Positions 13,171-21,490 of a DNA stretch of 37,221 nucleotides are shown one piece after another. The DNA is taken from contig CP070692.1 of NCBI GenBank assembly GCA_020353215.1, positions 207,812 to 245,032 of the forward strand, in the 5' to 3' direction. Made by a program: the position numbers and the translations under genes. Positions within the stretch are counted from its first letter, which is position 1; each line of letters begins with the position of its first letter. This stretch comes from Deltaproteobacteria bacterium. Lineage in GTDB: Bacteria; Desulfobacterota; Syntrophobacteria; BM002. The notes under the pieces are model-generated. The model saw only the letters and a list, made by a program, of their open reading frames with translations, had not been told where the DNA came from and ran no database searches.

Positions 13171-13812
13171 ATGGCCACGGTTGCAGACAATGAAGGTATC
13201 CGGATTGACCGGTTTGAATTGGGGCCCTTCGGCACCAATTCCTATGTCCTCATCTGTTCGAAAACGAGTGAGAGCGTGGTGATTGATGCACCTGGTGATT
13301 CTGGCATGATTCTGGACGCACTGGAGCAGACCTACCCGAAGTACATTCTGATCACCCACCACCATTTCGATCATGTCTCCGGTCTCTCCGAACTGAAGTC
13401 GGCCCTGGGTGTGCCAATTGCTGCTCATCCATTCGATGCGAGCAATCTGCCGGTAGTAGCCGACATTCTGCTTGACGACGGTGATGAAATACCCTTCGGC
13501 GATGTCCGACTCGAGGTGTTGCACACCCCCGGGCACACCCCGGGGAGTCTGTGTTTCCGAACGAGCAAATACCTGATTGCCGGCGACACACTGTTTCCAG
13601 GAGGTCCAGGGCACACTCACTCGCCTGCCGACTTCCTCCAGATCATTGCGTCCATTACCGGCAAGATCTTCAGACTATCGGACGACACACCGGTGTTTCC
13701 CGGCCATGGTGAATCGACGACAGTAGGGCGGGCAAAGGAGTTGTTCGAGGTGTTCTCTTCCAAGGGGCACGATCCAAGCCTCTGCGGAGATGTTGAGTGG
13801 GAGACTTCTTAA
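13171..13812 (+). CDS. MBL-fold metallo-hydrolase (glyoxalase-II/YcbL-like)
   Basis: A 213-residue hydrolase with the metal motif THHHFDH (62-68), HTPGHTPGSLCF carrying a further ligand, the bridging Asp in AGDTLFPGG and the last His in FPGHGEST. This is the layout of short glyoxalase-II-like proteins that cleave thioesters or related bonds with two metal ions. There is a strong ribosome site GGAGGTGA upstream of the ATG. It converges with the PIG-L deacetylase gene across the palindrome at 13922-14058. Small MBL hydrolases are sometimes linked to thiol metabolism, which is worth remembering given the neighbouring cluster, but nothing here fixes the substrate. Confidence 0.9.
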   Translation: MATVADNEGIRIDRFELGPFGTNSYVLICSKTSESVVIDAPGDSGMILDALEQTYPKYILITHHHFDHVSGLSELKSALGVPIAAHPFDASNLPVVADILLDDGDEIPFGDVRLEVLHTPGHTPGSLCFRTSKYLIAGDTLFPGGPGHTHSPADFLQIIASITGKIFRLSDDTPVFPGHGESTTVGRAKELFEVFSSKGHDPSLCGDVEWETS

Positions 13813-14099: not shown

Positions 14100-14798
14100 T
14101 TACCAGGAAATCTCTACTCGATGGAAACCCTCTGCCAGTTCGAATTCCTCTCCTTCGGCCATCTCCCTACACCGTGATCTCAGCCAATCTTCCACGCTAC
14201 TCGGGTTGGGAAATCCTTTGACCTGACTCTCGTGACAGTGCAGAGCCGCCAGCTTGAGGTCAAAAGTCTCGGTGATATCTGAACGGTAGTTTACGTCCTC
14301 CGCAGCCCAAAACAAAATCTCTTCTACATTATGCGGTTCCAAACCTTCCTTCAGCAAATCAGGATAGGCGAGATGATCTCTGGCGTAAGGGAAAACCGCA
14401 TCCAGGGTAACCTGTCCGGCAATGCGATGGTCGCGATGCCAGATGTAGCGGCGGTAGGGATCCGAGGTCACGACGATTTTGGGCCGGTATATTCTAATCC
14501 AGCGAACGAGTTCCTTCCGAAATTCCGGGGTATCCTCCAGCCCCTGGTCCGGGTATCCTAGAAAGACGACTTCTCGCACCCCAAGAACCTTGGCCGCAGC
14601 CCGTTGCTCGTTTTGCCGGATTTGAGCCAGTTCCTTGGGTTCAAGAGTCCGATCGTTCGTGCCTTTGTCGCCGCTGGTGCAGACGACGTAAACAACCTGC
14701 TTTCCTTCCCGGGTCCAGCGTGCAACTGTTCCAGCGACACCGAATTCGGCATCATCCGGATGGGCTGTGATCACCAAGACGTCAACTGCTGTGGTCAC
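14100..14798 (-). CDS. PIG-L/LmbE-family N-acetyl-sugar deacetylase (MshB/BshB-like)
   Basis: A 232-residue zinc deacetylase. It has the family motif AHPDD (12-16) giving the first metal ligands and catalytic Asp, and HRDH (121-124) giving the third. Family members remove the acetyl group from GlcNAc conjugates in mycothiol, bacillithiol, GPI-anchor and glycopeptide pathways. Its gene starts 10 bases after the stop of the GT4 gene, the same pairing as mshA/mshB and bshA/bshB activities. The start is a GTG at 14798 with GGAG seven bases upstream; an ATG two bases earlier is out of frame and stops at once. It is the last gene of the minus-strand cluster. Confidence 0.93.
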   Translation of the reverse strand: MTTAVDVLVITAHPDDAEFGVAGTVARWTREGKQVVYVVCTSGDKGTNDRTLEPKELAQIRQNEQRAAAKVLGVREVVFLGYPDQGLEDTPEFRKELVRWIRIYRPKIVVTSDPYRRYIWHRDHRIAGQVTLDAVFPYARDHLAYPDLLKEGLEPHNVEEILFWAAEDVNYRSDITETFDLKLAALHCHESQVKGFPNPSSVEDWLRSRCREMAEGEEFELAEGFHRVEISW

Positions 14799-14808
14799 AT
14801 CAAAACTC

Positions 14809-16125
14809 CTAAATCATCGAGACTTTTCCGCAACAGCAAGTCTCGAAATTATATTGTCTAAGCACCGCCGCATATTCGTTCATCATTGCGGACGCCACAC
14901 TCGCCCAACTGAATTCGAGAACAGTGGCGCGGATTGCATCGGCCGAGGGAAAATGTGACCGGGAGATAAATGTTTCTATACCGTTTGCCAGCAAACGGGG
15001 AGAACAATTTTCCACCACAAGTCCCGTCTCACCCTCTCTGAGAATACTCTCCATAGCCCCAACCTTGGTTGCTACCACCGGCGTACCAGAAGCCAGTGAC
15101 TCCAAAGCAACGAGACCGAAGCTTTCATAGTGAGACGGCACAACGGAGACGTCTGCAGCGCTGTAATAGGGCGGTAGTTTTTCTTGTTCGATCCTGCCCA
15201 CAAAGGTCACGAAATCCTGAATGCCCAATTCTCGACTCAGGCTCCGGAGACTCTTAGACTCCGGAGTGTGATCACCATCGCCACCGACAATCACCAATCG
15301 AAACCGCCGATAGTGCTGGAGGTGGGCTACGGCCTCCAGCAACCTGTCTATTCCCTTCAATGGTGCAAACCTGCCCACAAACAACACAATAGATTCATCT
15401 TGACCAAAACCTAACTGCTGCCGCGCTTTCTTTTTGTCTAATGGGCGAAAAAGATCCAAGTTGACGCCACAGGGTACAACGCCAATGGTCTCAGCGGCTG
15501 CCCCATAGTGTTGCATCAAATGGACTCTTTCTTTATCCGTAGCCACGAGTATGCGGTCGCAGTTTCTTGCCAAATGGTTTTCAATGGCAGTGCGAAGTTC
15601 GGGCTCTCTTTCCGAACCGACTGTATTGTTCTTCACCGCACCAACAGTATGAAACATGAAGACATGAGGAACTTCCCAACGTTCCTGGGCCCAGTTGCCC
15701 ACCCTCCCCGATAGCCAGTAGTGACTGTGTATGAGATCATAGTCAATTGACTCACGCGTTCTAAATCCCTCCAGCTCTTTTAAAAAGTCGTCCAGATGGG
15801 CGTAAAGAGCCAATTTGTTCATATGACCGTTGTTTCCGCTCCTTAGATGAATCAACCGTACGTTCTCGTACAGTTCAGCCATCTGGTTCTGTCTGGCATC
15901 GTTTAGACGGGTATAGATGTCGACCAAATGACCGCGATTCCCCAGTTCCCGGGCAATCTCTCTTACATAGACACTCATGCCTCCCGTGTCTTTCGTCCCT
16001 AGTTCTCCGATGGGGCTCGAATGAATGCTGAGCATCGCGATTCTTAGATTATCTGCTTCCACGGGCGCTACCTCTCCAACTTGTGCTCGTTTCAGGTTCA
16101 GGTCGGTTAGAATTTGACTTGGCAT
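14809..16125 (-). CDS. GT4-family glycosyltransferase, MshA-like
   Basis: A 438-residue retaining glycosyltransferase with a GT-B fold. The N-terminal half has the acceptor-side signature DTGGMSVYVREIARELGNRG typical of MshA and sucrose-phosphate-synthase-like enzymes. The C-terminal half has the nucleotide-sugar motif VGRFAPLKGIDRLLEA and the E-x7-E motif in SHYESFGLVALESLASGTPVV. It likely transfers GlcNAc or another sugar from a nucleotide donor to a small acceptor such as an inositol phosphate or a carboxylic acid (inference). Its start overlaps the GNAT gene by 19 bases. The C-terminus is odd: FETCCCGKVSMI with three adjacent Cys. The acceptor cannot be read from the sequence. Confidence 0.93.
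   Translation of the reverse strand: MPSQILTDLNLKRAQVGEVAPVEADNLRIAMLSIHSSPIGELGTKDTGGMSVYVREIARELGNRGHLVDIYTRLNDARQNQMAELYENVRLIHLRSGNNGHMNKLALYAHLDDFLKELEGFRTRESIDYDLIHSHYWLSGRVGNWAQERWEVPHVFMFHTVGAVKNNTVGSEREPELRTAIENHLARNCDRILVATDKERVHLMQHYGAAAETIGVVPCGVNLDLFRPLDKKKARQQLGFGQDESIVLFVGRFAPLKGIDRLLEAVAHLQHYRRFRLVIVGGDGDHTPESKSLRSLSRELGIQDFVTFVGRIEQEKLPPYYSAADVSVVPSHYESFGLVALESLASGTPVVATKVGAMESILREGETGLVVENCSPRLLANGIETFISRSHFPSADAIRATVLEFSWASVASAMMNEYAAVLRQYNFETCCCGKVSMI
14818..14845 (-). other. Hairpin over the end of the glycosyltransferase gene
   Basis: CGAGACTT and AAGTCTCG form a perfect 8-base stem with a 12-base loop, just before the stop of the GT4 gene and 19 bases ahead of the deacetylase start. 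In the mRNA it could tune deacetylase translation. Part of the Cys-Cys-Cys tail is encoded in the loop. Confidence 0.4.
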
Positions 16126-17135
16126 CTGTACAACGTAATGGGTTTCCCCCCCAACCGATGCTTGTATTCCTCTGCGCCTTTGAGAAAATCGTACTTTCTT
16201 CTCCCTCTGAGAATACTCTCCTTTATCGCCAAAACCTTGCTGAGCAGACCGACGCTCAACGAACTGAATCTGCCGTCGTAACCATTGTTGTATAGATATA
16301 TGGTAGAATTATAATCAAAGCACATTACGGCGGCTGCAGGCGTTCCATCAAGATCGAGAAAAAAAAGCCTCAAGAGGTTCGCTTTCGCCATTGTTTCTGC
16401 CAATGACCGAAAATAAGTAGCCATTTGGCTCGTCATAAAGGCCACTTTATCTGATCGGCTCAAACCGAACAGTGCCAGAAACGTCTCCACCTCATCCATC
16501 ACCGCTTCATAATCCTCCACAACTCGATAATTGATCTCGGCGGCCTCATGTAATCTCCTGAGTTTTCGTCTTACTTCATGTCGTTGTTTTCCGCTTAACA
16601 TCCCCAAGAATTCATCCCAAGTAGCCGGCAAGTCCAGTTCCAAGGTAACATCCTCGGACTGGTAGGAAACTTCACACTCCAGAGTTTTAGCCACACCCAC
16701 AAGTTCGGTGAGTACTTTGGAGTCGGTTCTCACAGGGTTCAGATCTAGACTACGGATGCCTTCCTGCTTTAACCGATCAAACAGAGTCTCAAAGAATTCC
16801 TTTCCCCTTCCAGGGGCCACAATGAAGTCTTGGTAATCACAAACGTCAGGGTCACCGATGAACCGTGCCTCGTCCCCTTCGACCAGAAGAGGCGCCAGAC
16901 CGATAAGATTGTCCTTGTCTCTAACGGCAAAGATGTATGGGTTCGATCCGTTACTGAATACGCTCCACCATACCTTCAACCAGCCGGGTAATACAAAAAG
17001 GCAATCCCATTCCAAGGGATATCCTGGATCCAGCCAATAAGAAGCCAAGCTGTCGAAGGTTTCTTCGGTTATTCTAAATGTCTTATTCGTTGTTTTCAGT
17101 TTTCGATCTCCTGGGCGTTGGGTGCGCGAGGTCAT
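16107..17135 (-). CDS. GNAT acyltransferase, BcsL/CelD (FemAB-like) type
   Basis: A 342-residue protein with tandem GNAT-like folds. The C-terminal half shows the usual BcsL landmarks: GKQRHEVRRKLRRL, LFFLDLDGTPAAAVMCFDYN, YLYNNGYDGRF and YDFLKGAEEYKHRLGG. Such enzymes transfer acyl or aminoacyl groups onto sugars and cell-surface precursors, and are common in exopolysaccharide clusters. Its stop overlaps the GT4 start by 19 bases. The ATG at 17135 lies in the outer arm of the palindromic repeat and has no good ribosome site, so the true start could be slightly downstream. It is not the same subfamily as MshD. Confidence 0.88.
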   Translation of the reverse strand: MTSRTQRPGDRKLKTTNKTFRITEETFDSLASYWLDPGYPLEWDCLFVLPGWLKVWWSVFSNGSNPYIFAVRDKDNLIGLAPLLVEGDEARFIGDPDVCDYQDFIVAPGRGKEFFETLFDRLKQEGIRSLDLNPVRTDSKVLTELVGVAKTLECEVSYQSEDVTLELDLPATWDEFLGMLSGKQRHEVRRKLRRLHEAAEINYRVVEDYEAVMDEVETFLALFGLSRSDKVAFMTSQMATYFRSLAETMAKANLLRLFFLDLDGTPAAAVMCFDYNSTIYLYNNGYDGRFSSLSVGLLSKVLAIKESILRGRRKYDFLKGAEEYKHRLGGKPITLYRCQVKF

Positions 17136-17144
17136 TGCGTTTCA

Positions 17145-17287
17145 GGTCATTTGGCTCGGCCGTGATGACATAATCACTAGATCCTTAGGTCGCTGTTTGT
17201 TTGGATCACCTGCTCATAGCTTCGCTCTTATTGGTGATCACTTAAAGGATGGACACAATGACCTGATGACGGCGAAGCTAAATGACC
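17145..17287. repeat. Palindromic repeat, copy B (143 bp)
   Basis: Outer arms GGTCATTTGGCTCGGCCGT (17145-17163) and the complement of GGCGAAGCTAAATGACC (17271-17287) pair with few mismatches. A further GGTCATT/AATGACC pair lies outside them (17132-17138 and 17289-17295). The inner stem runs from GGATCACC (17203-17210) to GGTGATCAC, with CTCAT and GCTTCGC in the loop exactly as in copy A. It fills the gap between the oxidoreductase stop and the GNAT start, inside the operon. Confidence 0.65.
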
Positions 17288-17303
17288 GAATGACCGCACC
17301 AGG

Positions 17304-18347
17304 TTATGAGCTGCGCGAAACATTAACAGTATCCGGTTCCAAAGCAACCGTACTCCCGGTTCGCGCTGCCTTTGCCAATGCGTCCAGAACTCGCATGTTG
17401 CGAATACTCTCCTGTGGCGATAGAGCCAGTACTGTTTTCCCCGACACCGCATCGGCGAAATGTTCGACCATGAGCCGGTACTCGTCGACGCCGGGTACGA
17501 CATGTTCCTGGCCAACTTCCTGATCTTTGCGACGAACGGTGAACACAGAGTCCTTCTCCCAAGGGATAAAAGCATCGTGCGGTAACTCAATCGCACCTTC
17601 ACTGCCCACGATGCTGTAGGTTTGCTGCAATGCTGAGATGAAACTGGCTTCCAGTGTGGCGAATCCATCATCCGAGAATCGCAGTGAACCCACCAGGTGC
17701 ACATCGACCCCGGCAGGGTGAAACACCGCCTGCGCCTGAAGCAGCGTTGGTTCTTTGTCCAGAAGCCAGCGAGCTACACTGACGCCATAGCATCCCACAT
17801 CCAGCAGGACCCCGCCACCCATGTCCGGCTTGAGGCGCGCATTGTGCCCGCTTTTCAACAACTCGCTGTCCATGGGGTAGCAGAACGCAGATCGCACTAG
17901 GTAAATACTGCCGATGGCACCGTTCGCAGCCATCTCCTTGATGCGCTGGCTCCTGGGATGGAACCGGTACATGAGCCCTTCCATCAACAACAAACCGGCA
18001 TTTGTGGCAGCATCCACCATTTCTTGCGCTTCACCCTCATTACACGCCAACGGTTTTTCGCACAAGACGTGCTTGCCGGCTTGCAATGCCTTCAATGTCC
18101 ACGGGTGGTGGAGATGATTGGGAAGTGGGATATAGACCGCCTGAATCTCCGGATCAGCCAATAGATCGTCGTAGCTACGGTAGAGGTGCTTGATGTGGTT
18201 TGTCGCCACTACTCGGCCACCACTCTCTGGGGAGCGGGTGGCAAGCGCCCGAACCAATCCGTTTCCAGATCTCTGAATGGCAGGGATAACGCACACGCGG
18301 GCAATTTCCGCATTGCCCAGAACACCCCAGTTGATTTTCTCAGCCAT
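17304..18347 (-). CDS. Gfo/Idh/MocA-family NAD(P)-dependent oxidoreductase
   Basis: A 347-residue sugar or cyclitol dehydrogenase. The N-terminal Rossmann motif is WGVLGNAEIARVCVIPAI. The catalytic-lysine motif CEKPLA is present, as is the C-terminal-domain motif GGGVLLDVGCYGV. Members oxidise or reduce hydroxyls on sugars, inositols or nucleotide sugars. Its start overlaps the upstream ThuA-Gfo gene by 8 bases behind AGAGGTG, so the two are coupled, and the second Gfo module suggests sequential or paired redox steps. The family is certain, the substrate unknown. The following gene is separated only by palindrome B. Confidence 0.93.
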   Translation of the reverse strand: MAEKINWGVLGNAEIARVCVIPAIQRSGNGLVRALATRSPESGGRVVATNHIKHLYRSYDDLLADPEIQAVYIPLPNHLHHPWTLKALQAGKHVLCEKPLACNEGEAQEMVDAATNAGLLLMEGLMYRFHPRSQRIKEMAANGAIGSIYLVRSAFCYPMDSELLKSGHNARLKPDMGGGVLLDVGCYGVSVARWLLDKEPTLLQAQAVFHPAGVDVHLVGSLRFSDDGFATLEASFISALQQTYSIVGSEGAIELPHDAFIPWEKDSVFTVRRKDQEVGQEHVVPGVDEYRLMVEHFADAVSGKTVLALSPQESIRNMRVLDALAKAARTGSTVALEPDTVNVSRSS

Positions 18348-20013
18348 CCAACACCTCTACTGCACCGCCATTGGCCGCGGACCTTGCCGCCGCTTCTAAG
18401 ATCTCCACTACGCGCAACGAGTCGTCGAGTGGGGCGGCAATCGGCTCTCCCGTCAGCAAATGATCTGCCAGGTTACAGTGAAAAAGATAATACTCTCTCT
18501 TGGGAAGTGCCAGTTTTTGGGCAACAATCTGACCAGAACGGTGACGGCGATGAAGGGTCAAGTCCGGCACCATTTCAGTGGCGGGGATATCGTGCTGATG
18601 GTAATATAGAATAGGATCAATTTCGTAAGTGCTCACATCCCGCCAGTGGCCTACGATTGCCCCCTCTGTTCCCAGCAAATACCATTTCGGCTTGCGCACA
18701 GCGGCAATGTCGGAGTGAATAAACTCCGCTTCCTGTCCCCCGGCGAAGCGTACCTGTATGCGCTCCTGGTCGGCGTTGGTGACATCGTGCCAAACCCGTT
18801 TCTGGCTGGTTGAAGTAACGGTGGAAACCCGCTCGGGTATCAAGCTTACCACCCAATCCAGATAATGGGCTCCCCAATCATAAGCGGTGCCCCCTGAAAT
18901 CGCATCGTGCGAATGCCAGTATCCACAAGGGTGGTTGAAGCCTCCAACGAACGTTTCCAGGTAAAACAGCTCGCCGATCAGTCCTTCGGCTAGGGCTTGT
19001 CTGATGGCCAAGTAATCGACATCCCACCGCCGGTTTTGATGGCAACTGAGATGTACCTGGTGTTTTTCCGCCAATTCCGCCATAGCGGCTGTTTCCTTCC
19101 GGTTCAATGCCAAAGGCTTCTCACAGACTACGTGTCTGCCTGCGGCCATCATCTGCAAGGAGAGCATGGCATGGGTATTGGGAGGCGTGGTCACAATCAC
19201 CACATCAACTTCAGGGTCATTCGCTAAGGCGCCAGCCGAGTCATAGGTCTTCAGGTTTGGAAAATCCTGTTGCGCCTGTTGAAGCCGTTGCTGATCCAAA
19301 TCACAAGCGGCTCGCAGGATGAGACCATCCGTGGCCTCGATGCCCAGCCCGTGTGCCTTCCCTACGGATTGGGCGTAGCCCAGCAACCCAACCCCCAGGG
19401 TTCGCTCGCTGGGCGGTTGTCCGGCTAATTGGCACAATAAACGGTAAACGATCTGTTGAACAACGGCGTGGTCGTAACCTTGCAGCGTACTGCAGGCAAC
19501 CTGCCCCTCACCTACAGAATGGTAGACGAGTACGGGGCAGTGCTGATAACGCCAGTCAGCATAGAGGATTGTTTCTGCGGTTGCAGCCGTTTTGTCGAAA
19601 GTTTGAAAGCGGCCGTTGACATAAATGGCATCCGGCAAACGTGCTGCCAAAGGATTCCTGCTATCTGTAAACAATACTCGCAACTCGTTAACTGGTCCTA
19701 GCACGGTTGGTTGTGCCCCAAATATCTCCGGTAATGGTTTCTCTGATAAATGAACCAGTCCAAACCAGCCGCCGCCGGTCCGGACGAAATTCGTCAGGTG
19801 GTCGCTGGTATCCGTAAAAGCAGCCGTGTTAGCAGTAGCAACAACATCATAGGGGCTCAAATCGTTAGGCAATCGGGCTGCCATCGTCAATTTGACGTGT
19901 CGGATGGATCGTAGATAGGACAATAGGGGCCCGAGAGATGGTTCGTCCTTTTCGCTTACGAAAAGAACAGATATTGGGGGATGAACAATCACTGTTGCTA
20001 CCTCACTACGCAT
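18340..20013 (-). CDS. Fusion protein: ThuA-like domain plus Gfo/Idh/MocA oxidoreductase
   Basis: About 557 residues. The first about 205 resemble ThuA (class-I amidotransferase-like fold; VLFVSEKDEPSLGPLLSYL, FVRTGGGWFGLVHLSE, ILYADWRYQHCPVLVYHSVG). The rest is a Gfo/Idh/MocA enzyme: TLGVGLLGYAQSVGKAHG, CEKPLALNRKE and GGTAYDWGAHYLDW. ThuA proteins are linked to trehalose and other disaccharide use, and ThuA and Gfo genes are frequent neighbours, so the fusion supports action on a glycoside. I chose the ATG at 20013; a GTG at 19992 with GAGGTAG seven bases upstream is an equally good alternative. The frame is open to 20094, but that extension is repeat DNA. Confidence 0.88.
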   Translation of the reverse strand: MRSEVATVIVHPPISVLFVSEKDEPSLGPLLSYLRSIRHVKLTMAARLPNDLSPYDVVATANTAAFTDTSDHLTNFVRTGGGWFGLVHLSEKPLPEIFGAQPTVLGPVNELRVLFTDSRNPLAARLPDAIYVNGRFQTFDKTAATAETILYADWRYQHCPVLVYHSVGEGQVACSTLQGYDHAVVQQIVYRLLCQLAGQPPSERTLGVGLLGYAQSVGKAHGLGIEATDGLILRAACDLDQQRLQQAQQDFPNLKTYDSAGALANDPEVDVVIVTTPPNTHAMLSLQMMAAGRHVVCEKPLALNRKETAAMAELAEKHQVHLSCHQNRRWDVDYLAIRQALAEGLIGELFYLETFVGGFNHPCGYWHSHDAISGGTAYDWGAHYLDWVVSLIPERVSTVTSTSQKRVWHDVTNADQERIQVRFAGGQEAEFIHSDIAAVRKPKWYLLGTEGAIVGHWRDVSTYEIDPILYYHQHDIPATEMVPDLTLHRRHRSGQIVAQKLALPKREYYLFHCNLADHLLTGEPIAAPLDDSLRVVEILEAAARSAANGGAVEVLDG

Positions 20014-20066
20014 ACTCAACTTGTTTCCTGCAAAGCGCCCACCCTTGAGTGCACGCGTCAAGCTGC

Positions 20067-20226
20067 GCACTAAGCACTGCGCACTAAGTGCCAAATGTCA
20101 GGACATCGACAACCCATGAACAACAATAGATGAGGTTAGTCCTGTAGCGCTTACTGTCTACTGTCTAGTCCTGTAGTGCTTAGTGTCTAGTGCTTAGTGT
20201 CTAGTGTCTAGTGCCTAGTGTCTACT
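20067..20226. repeat. Degenerate tandem and inverted repeats of a TAGTGCTTAGTGTC unit
   Basis: From 20139 to 20226 variants of CCTGTAGTGCTTA and GTGCTTAGTGTCTA are repeated several times head to tail. An inverted copy (GCACTAAGCACTGCGCACTA) lies at 20067-20086. The region can fold on itself. It fills the gap between the S51-fusion gene, whose stop codon lies within the repeat, and the ThuA-Gfo gene. Confidence 0.65.
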
Positions 20227-21490
20227 GGATTATTCCCTTAGACTTTAGTCGCCAACGGGGGCCGTCCTTGGTATCTTCAACGGCAATGGCGGCCCGGTCG
20301 AGGCTCTCCCGAACCGCATCAGCCTCCTTCCATTGCTTTTGCTGTCTAAATCTCTCCCGTAACTGGAGCAGGTCCTCCACTAAAGGGGCGAGGGCCTCGA
20401 CTTGGTCTTTGGGGGAAGACTCGAGTTTCATCCCTAAAACCACGATCAGATCCCGAAGAACCTCTCTGGCCTGGGTAACAAACTCCTCATGTTCGAGATC
20501 CTGTTTTGCCTGCCAAATCGTCCGATCAAGCTCCAAAAGGGCGCCAGTGGTCTGGCTCGCCTTTCGCTTCTCCAGACCGATGTGGAAAGCATCCTTGATG
20601 GCATGAATCCTATCCCAAAAAGACTCCTCCCCTGCGTCGAGTGCTGTCTCCAACTCTGCAGGCTTTGGAACCTTCATTTTCAGTTCCTGATCCACAGCTC
20701 CTCCGCGAAGGACATCTAAGGAAAACCTGTCGCCCTTTGCAAAAATAATCTCTTTCCCCTGACGCCGTAAGGTCACACAGCCAATCCCTTTGATTACGGC
20801 CTCCTCGTTTTCGAGATCAATGAGGCAGGCGGTATGCTCATCCAAACCGAAAATGGATACGTCCGCCGGTAAGAGAGATTCAAGTTGCTGAAAACGCGAC
20901 TTACCCATGAAACAGCATTGGGTATCATGGGTTCCCCCTTCCGCATTGTTCCAGTGGGGAACCACCACCAGGTTGAATCCAAAATACTCCAGGATGTTCA
21001 TCCCCTCAACCCAGTGCAAGTTTTCTCCTACTTTGTAAATCTCATAAACTGGAAGGGTAAAGCGTCCCACTGTCAGGGCAGCCGCACTGGCTGCTACCAA
21101 GCAGCCCCCGAGTTCTACCTGTTGAATGATAATTTCTGGAATAGGTGTGTGTTGCCATTGGCGAACGGCATAAGTAGGACTACCGGGACCTATCAAAACA
21201 AAATTGGCTTCCCGCAAGGCATGATAAGCCTGCTCGGTTTCGTATTCCGAACACCCCTCCCTCGATTTAAAAGAGACTAGCGCCATGGGCTGCTGAACAT
21301 GAGTGTTGAAGTATTCCATTGCTCGCTGGGATATCTCATCTACATTCAGTTGAAAGCCGGCCGGAGTATCCAGAAACACGGCTCGTGGAGGATCAGAAAG
21401 CCCGCTCAGCAGTTCTTTGTGGACCTCTACCATGGTAGCGGTCAACTCCCCGGAACCCATAAGGGCGATGATTCCTCGTCTAGATGACAT
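20222..21490 (-). CDS. Peptidase S51 (cyanophycinase-like) domain fused to a CysRS C-terminal domain
   Basis: A 422-residue protein from the ATG at 21490 (AGAGGT site; a further upstream start at 21523 is less likely). Residues 1 to about 265 have the S51/class-I-amidotransferase-like fold: IIALMGSGEL, VLIGPGSPTYAVRQW and a nucleophile elbow LVAASAAALTVG with Ser about 135. Residues about 288-418 match the C-terminal end of cysteinyl-tRNA synthetase: the DALR helical part, VLRDLIVVLGMKL, then LRERFRQQKQWKEADAVR and AVEDTKDGPRWR. The HIGH and KMSKS catalytic core is absent, so it cannot charge tRNA. The role is unknown; it may bind RNA or an amino-acid conjugate, or hydrolyse a peptide-like bond. 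It is the first gene of the minus-strand cluster. Confidence 0.85.
   Translation of the reverse strand: MSSRRGIIALMGSGELTATMVEVHKELLSGLSDPPRAVFLDTPAGFQLNVDEISQRAMEYFNTHVQQPMALVSFKSREGCSEYETEQAYHALREANFVLIGPGSPTYAVRQWQHTPIPEIIIQQVELGGCLVAASAAALTVGRFTLPVYEIYKVGENLHWVEGMNILEYFGFNLVVVPHWNNAEGGTHDTQCCFMGKSRFQQLESLLPADVSIFGLDEHTACLIDLENEEAVIKGIGCVTLRRQGKEIIFAKGDRFSLDVLRGGAVDQELKMKVPKPAELETALDAGEESFWDRIHAIKDAFHIGLEKRKASQTTGALLELDRTIWQAKQDLEHEEFVTQAREVLRDLIVVLGMKLESSPKDQVEALAPLVEDLLQLRERFRQQKQWKEADAVRESLDRAAIAVEDTKDGPRWRLKSKGIIQ

Follow-up and report, generated by a model that had tools for sequence, protein, structure and literature searches.

The window analysed here, a stretch of 37,221 nucleotides from a Deltaproteobacteria bacterium (GCA_020353215.1, contig CP070692.1, positions 207,812-245,032 of the forward strand), contains an operon of six minus-strand genes that we propose as a candidate route to a mycothiol-like thiol. 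Cassette coordinates are given as window positions. Its core comprises a PIG-L/LmbE deacetylase (14100-14798), a glycosyltransferase of family 4 (GT4) resembling MshA (14809-16125) and a double-GNAT transferase of the FemAB/FemX type (16107-17135, hereafter FemAB); their predicted activities are, respectively, deacetylation of an N-acetylglucosamine (GlcNAc) conjugate, transfer from UDP-GlcNAc to inositol phosphate, and cysteinyl (aminoacyl) transfer. Upstream lie two Gfo/Idh/MocA oxidoreductases (17304-18347, predicted to modify a sugar or cyclitol, and 18340-20094) and a protein joining an S51/cyanophycinase-like hydrolase domain to the anticodon-binding domain of cysteinyl-tRNA synthetase (CysRS), encoded from 20222 to 21490 (ATG start) or 21523 (GTG start).

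The layout given in a preliminary description of this DNA holds at these coordinates: six minus-strand genes, a gap of 10 bp between PIG-L and GT4, and an overlap, here 19 bp, between the acyltransferase (FemAB) and GT4. Pfam and NCBIfam confirmed the families. The second oxidoreductase starts with a ThuA-like domain at its N-terminus; its homologue in locus L052 is split over two frames.

Conservation of the cassette

A protein search of 148 related genomes (the source genome being G000) found the GT4 in 41. FemAB adjoins it in most of the 40 loci around GT4 matches, and PIG-L, the S51-CysRS protein and a metallo-beta-lactamase-fold, glyoxalase II-like hydrolase recur as neighbours. The last of these is convergent with PIG-L in the window (13171-13812, plus strand; GloB, 92.7 bits); 21 of the 40 compared loci, the window among them, contain it.

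Scanning the collection with an alignment of the S51-CysRS protein gave 289 relatives; the loci counts below refer to the best 80 of these 289, many of which meet contig ends. They come from Desulfobacterota, Nitrospirota and a few metagenome-assembled genomes of Bacillota. The recurring order is S51-CysRS, two Gfo/Idh/MocA enzymes, FemAB, GT4 and PIG-L, with FemAB in 62 loci, GT4 in 61 and PIG-L in 45, and with order and strand mostly the same. As the Gfo/Idh/MocA enzymes are present in only about 34-39 of the 80, we regard the pair as an optional insert. Recurring in the 40 loci of relatives and the 80 scanned loci alike, the grouping is far beyond chance.

An MshA-like glycosyltransferase linked to inositol genes

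MshA is the sole strong family match of the GT4: it scores 360.3 bits against TIGR03449, the next family reaching 117, and 109.8 bits against BshA, below the cut-off of 273.7. Its best PDB matches are the C. glutamicum MshA entries 3c48 and 3c4q. Residues K78, Y110, T134 and R154 of that enzyme, which we take to be its ligands of the acceptor phosphate (of inositol phosphate), have equivalents in 65, 83, 82 and 83 of 83 cassette GT4s, respectively; the sucrose-phosphate-synthase-like Tll1590 differs from MshA at two of the four positions.

The gene context points the same way. Inositol-3-phosphate synthase (Ino1) adjoins the cassette in 11 of the 80 loci, and the single cassette-linked Ino1 tested scores 414 bits against TIGR03450 (mycothiol_INO1). 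A histidine-family phosphatase lies just past PIG-L in 15 of the 80; in three lineages lacking the S51 gene, a gene assigned by its sequence motif to the inositol-monophosphatase-like family is convergent with GT4. Across genomes, Ino1 accompanies GT4 in 40 of 41 cases and occurs in 64 of the 107 genomes without it (p=1e-6; this and the other co-occurrence tests ignore the shared ancestry of genomes). The source genome has two Ino1 genes. Because of this linkage to Ino1 and phosphatases, the co-occurrence and the retained acceptor-phosphate ligands, GlcNAc-inositol-phosphate is the best-supported candidate for the GT4 product.

A second MshA-like GT4 of the source genome (G000:C1:4565221-4566324; L032:9551-10855), 61% identical, stands beside cytochrome-type genes without a cassette partner.

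The cassette PIG-L is the only one in its genome. Its best family is BshB1 (112 bits, cut-off 182.5), MshB scores 56.7 bits (cut-off 224.35), and the nearest solved structure is diacetylchitobiose deacetylase.

A FemAB-like protein as the probable replacement of MshC

What had been described as an acyltransferase is a two-domain FemAB/Acetyltransf_6 protein (Pfam PF13480 and, weakly, PF04339). It occurs in 39 of the 41 genomes with GT4 and in 1 of the 107 without (p=4e-32). The two genomes with GT4 that lack it, G006 and G081, both carry an MshC-type ligase, a gene found in just 3 of the 148 genomes (the third being G001); only 1 of the 39 genomes with both FemAB and GT4 has one.

These ligases of Desulfobacterota (L055:7408-8889, L089:5778-6989 and L090:8186-9439) are CysRS paralogues without CysS_C; they have in common with M. 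smegmatis MshC the TPYDxTHLGHA signature and an insertion of four residues, and they group with it at 100% bootstrap, apart from all CysRS. Their neighbours are an MshA-like GT4, desulfoferrodoxin or OsmC. In G081 the gene directly precedes GT4, and this MshC-linked GT4 nests in a 100% clade of FemAB-linked ones. In G006 the operon is otherwise intact with FemAB cleanly absent, the MshC-type gene lying elsewhere beside desulfoferrodoxin; in G001 it lies beside OsmC (both neighbours named from sequence). Given the co-occurrence of FemAB with GT4, and since the two FemAB-less genomes carry an MshC-type ligase, FemAB is likely a non-orthologous replacement of MshC, that is, the cysteine-attaching enzyme. 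The earlier statement that the ligase is missing calls for a correction: no MshC-type protein was found in the source genome, but the FemAB-like protein is probably that ligase.

Two other possibilities were rejected. Locus L124, with no FemAB in its operon and no MshC, looked like an exception, but FemAB is found elsewhere in its genome. The CysRS* of Desulfobacterales, a CysRS devoid of the anticodon domain and coupled to SelC*/SelB* (PMC9437257), is likewise a truncated CysRS paralogue from the same phylum as the MshC-type genes; however, near the latter we saw no tRNA gene and no SelB-like open reading frame, and they group with MshC.

A sequence search of the PDB with FemAB gave no match. 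Its AlphaFold (AF2) model, with a predicted local distance difference test (pLDDT) score of 94.2, has FemX as its best structural match (E 1e-11); next come Sbb17 and Sba18, followed by FemXWv, MprF and FemA. FemAB therefore shares the double-GNAT fold with the FemABX proteins and tRNA-dependent GNATs (FemXWv, VlmA, DhpH, PacB, BD-12 Orf11, Sbb17/Sba18), its top structural matches, but has no detectable sequence similarity to the solved members, and its donor and acceptor are predicted. Sbb17 and Sba18, whose PDB entries label them aminoacyl-tRNA-dependent peptide synthases, were solved with streptothrisamine; like Orf11, they act on this amino-sugar antibiotic core. FemAB has an invariant, strongly basic helix, RHExRRKLRR, and, close to its C terminus, an almost invariant YK pair. 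The related Orf11 glycylates streptothrisamine from Gly-tRNA, and FemXWv has a catalytic Lys305 (PMC12945691); the YK pair and the RHExRRK helix are only suggestive candidates for comparable roles. A CoA P-loop motif was found at no consistent position in FemAB, which is a weak negative.

The S51-CysRS fusion protein

The CysRS-derived domain on an S51 domain, as first described, is real. Pfam itself matched CysS_C only; searches of PDB profiles and folds were needed to identify S51. The C-terminal anticodon-binding region of CysRS is matched by residues 294-419 of the alignment profile, and the N-terminal portion of the protein has an S51/cyanophycinase-like fold. Ser135, His179 and Glu184 are invariant; with the fold and the catalytic Ser/His pair in place, hydrolase activity is predicted.

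E. coli CysRS contacts G34 of tRNACys via R427, D436 and W432, and through water via R423 (PMC12684709). By alignment, R423, R427, W432 and D436 correspond to R378, R382, W387 and D391 of the S51 protein, conserved in 38, 37, 36 and 38 of 38 homologues, respectively. With all four G34-contact residues kept, the protein probably still reads the tRNACys anticodon. A hydrolase role, in editing or in recycling of a conjugate, is for us as likely as that of a tRNA shuttle.

Directly upstream of the S51-CysRS gene, 21 of the 80 loci have another S51 (cyanophycinase-like) gene that stands alone (e.g. L159:7253-7942).

Redox genes around the cassette

The source genome has a fusion of mycoredoxin with a thioredoxin-reductase-like flavoprotein (L093:10137-11483; 90.6 bits, cut-off 89.5) about 4 kb from one of its Ino1 genes; the other Ino1 has a mycothione/lipoamide-type disulfide reductase and a fused MsrAB as neighbours (L092:2395-7206). 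The mycoredoxin fusion adjoins the cassette in 5 of the 80 loci (L116, L133, L137, L159 and L169) and is enriched in genomes with GT4 (13 of 41, against 8 of 107 without; p=0.0004).

Proposed pathway and its alternatives

From the genes present and their conservation, the residues retained, the fold, the co-occurrence and the exchange of FemAB for MshC we propose, with a probability of roughly 0.6, that the product of the operon is a low-molecular-weight thiol akin to mycothiol, either Cys-GlcN-inositol or a form with a modified cyclitol. The reactions, the amino acid involved and the dependence on tRNA are all predicted. Ino1 would supply inositol phosphate, onto which the MshA-like GT4 would transfer GlcNAc from UDP-GlcNAc; a phosphatase (of the histidine-phosphatase or inositol-monophosphatase family in relatives) would remove the phosphate and PIG-L the acetyl group. 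FemAB would then take over the part of MshC and attach a cysteinyl group, whose most likely donor is Cys-tRNACys, to the free amine of the glucosamine. The S51-CysRS protein would bind tRNACys, either to hand it over or to hydrolyse the conjugate or a mischarged tRNA, and the two Gfo/Idh/MocA enzymes, where present, would modify the sugar or the cyclitol. We hold the tRNA dependence of cysteinylation less firmly than the thiol. Only tentatively do we put forward the full version, in which a FemX-type transferase assisted by the S51 anticodon reader moves cysteine from Cys-tRNACys to glucosaminyl-inositol, as a non-orthologous MshC replacement, and the product is the main thiol, hitherto unknown, of many members of the Desulfobacterota and Nitrospirota.

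Several observations weigh against this proposal. The GT4 stays below the MshA equivalog cut-off of 462.5 bits, and its tree has deep nodes without resolution, neither proving nor disproving common descent with Actinobacterial MshA. PIG-L passes no MshB or BshB cut-off. The Ino1 genes of the source genome lie away from the cassette and belong to another subtype (22-26 bits against TIGR03450). The FemAB/MshC exchange rests on two genomes, and FemX-like folds also occur in double-GNAT proteins that may not use tRNA, so that the fold alone is no proof. The S51-CysRS protein is not simply a partner of FemAB, since G006 keeps it without FemAB. Finally, the mycoredoxin fusion also occurs in genomes lacking GT4, and DinB_2-family thiol-transferases show no significant enrichment in those having it (p=0.16).

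The strongest competing explanation, though unlikely, retains the GlcN-inositol scaffold and has FemAB add an ordinary acyl group or an amino acid other than cysteine, giving a glycoconjugate of the cell-surface or osmolyte type and no thiol. The broad Acetyltransf_6/CelD family to which FemAB belongs does use varied donors, and the Gfo/Idh/MocA enzymes suggest sugar tailoring. Yet FemAB is missing precisely where a cysteine ligase of the MshC type is found, the operon itself encodes a tRNACys-type anticodon domain, and the redox neighbours (desulfoferrodoxin and OsmC beside MshC-type genes, mycoredoxin-thioredoxin reductase beside some cassettes) fit it poorly.

The preliminary description had proposed a GlcN-cyclitol or GlcN-acid conjugate, possibly a thiol, and had offered exopolysaccharide synthesis as the alternative. 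In such a route, or in a glycolipid (GPI-like) one, GT4, PIG-L and the FemAB-family protein would together produce an amino sugar attached to a lipid or a polymer. We consider this improbable, even though polysaccharide clusters also contain GT4, PIG-L and Acetyltransf_6 proteins and the poorly resolved tree leaves room for exopolysaccharide GT4s in the clade: the conserved neighbours include no flippase, polymerase or chain-length gene, redox and inositol genes lie nearby, and the GT4 is a soluble MshA-type enzyme with inositol-phosphate ligands. The newly found linkages to Ino1, histidine phosphatase, an inositol-monophosphatase-like gene and mycoredoxin-thioredoxin reductase, together with the FemAB-for-MshC exchange, favour the inositol/thiol branch. 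Nor did we find what the description had named as speaking against the conjugate. The neighbourhood is conserved; hidden Markov models and ligand residues make the GT4 MshA-like rather than a polysaccharide enzyme, although its deep placement in the tree is unsettled; and instead of a complete BshABC or MshABCD set elsewhere, the source genome has a single PIG-L, the two Ino1 genes for which a search had been suggested, and no BshC, MshC or genuine GshB-type ATP-grasp (28 bits only, where genuine matches exceed 118).

Least probable of all is true mycothiol or Cys-GlcN-Ins made with another ATP-dependent ligase encoded elsewhere, FemAB performing the final N-acetylation of MshD: MshD is likewise a double GNAT and the product scaffold would be identical, but the source genome and all but one of the 39 with FemAB and GT4 lack an MshC-type ligase, two of the three genomes with MshC lack FemAB, as fits replacement and not cooperation, and FemAB has no consistently placed CoA P-loop motif.

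Relation to known thiol pathways

The mycothiol pathway (Ino1 and MshA-MshD) shares much with the proposed cysteinyl-glucosaminyl-inositol route: an MshA-like GT4 with inositol-phosphate ligands, a PIG-L deacetylase, Ino1 and a phosphatase linked in relatives, mycoredoxin, and a real MshC-type ligase in some relatives. It differs in that most cassette genomes have a FemAB-like transferase in place of MshC, and in that the cassette adds the S51-CysRS-anticodon fusion and the Gfo/Idh/MocA enzymes. The phyla differ as well, mshA-D being found only in Actinobacteria (PMC6282198) and the cassette in Desulfobacterota and Nitrospirota. Bacillithiol synthesis (BshA, BshB, BshC) follows the same GT4 and PIG-L logic, and BshB1 is the best deacetylase match; however, BshC occurs in 1 of the 148 genomes and in none of the source organism's own family, and the GT4 is far nearer MshA than BshA (360 against 110 bits). 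Since defining features of these two pathways were not found when tested, the cassette belongs to neither as defined. It looks like a previously unrecognised relative of the mycothiol pathway; our literature searches turned up no report of a mycothiol-type pathway from Desulfobacterota or Nitrospirota.

The small thiol of most sulfate-reducer-related anaerobes is largely unknown. If our proposal is true, this operon identifies the genes behind a candidate main thiol in two phyla of central importance to the sulfur cycle. Aminoacyl-tRNA would then join the known ways of making a redox thiol, and the CysRS appendage on a peptidase-like protein would be accounted for.

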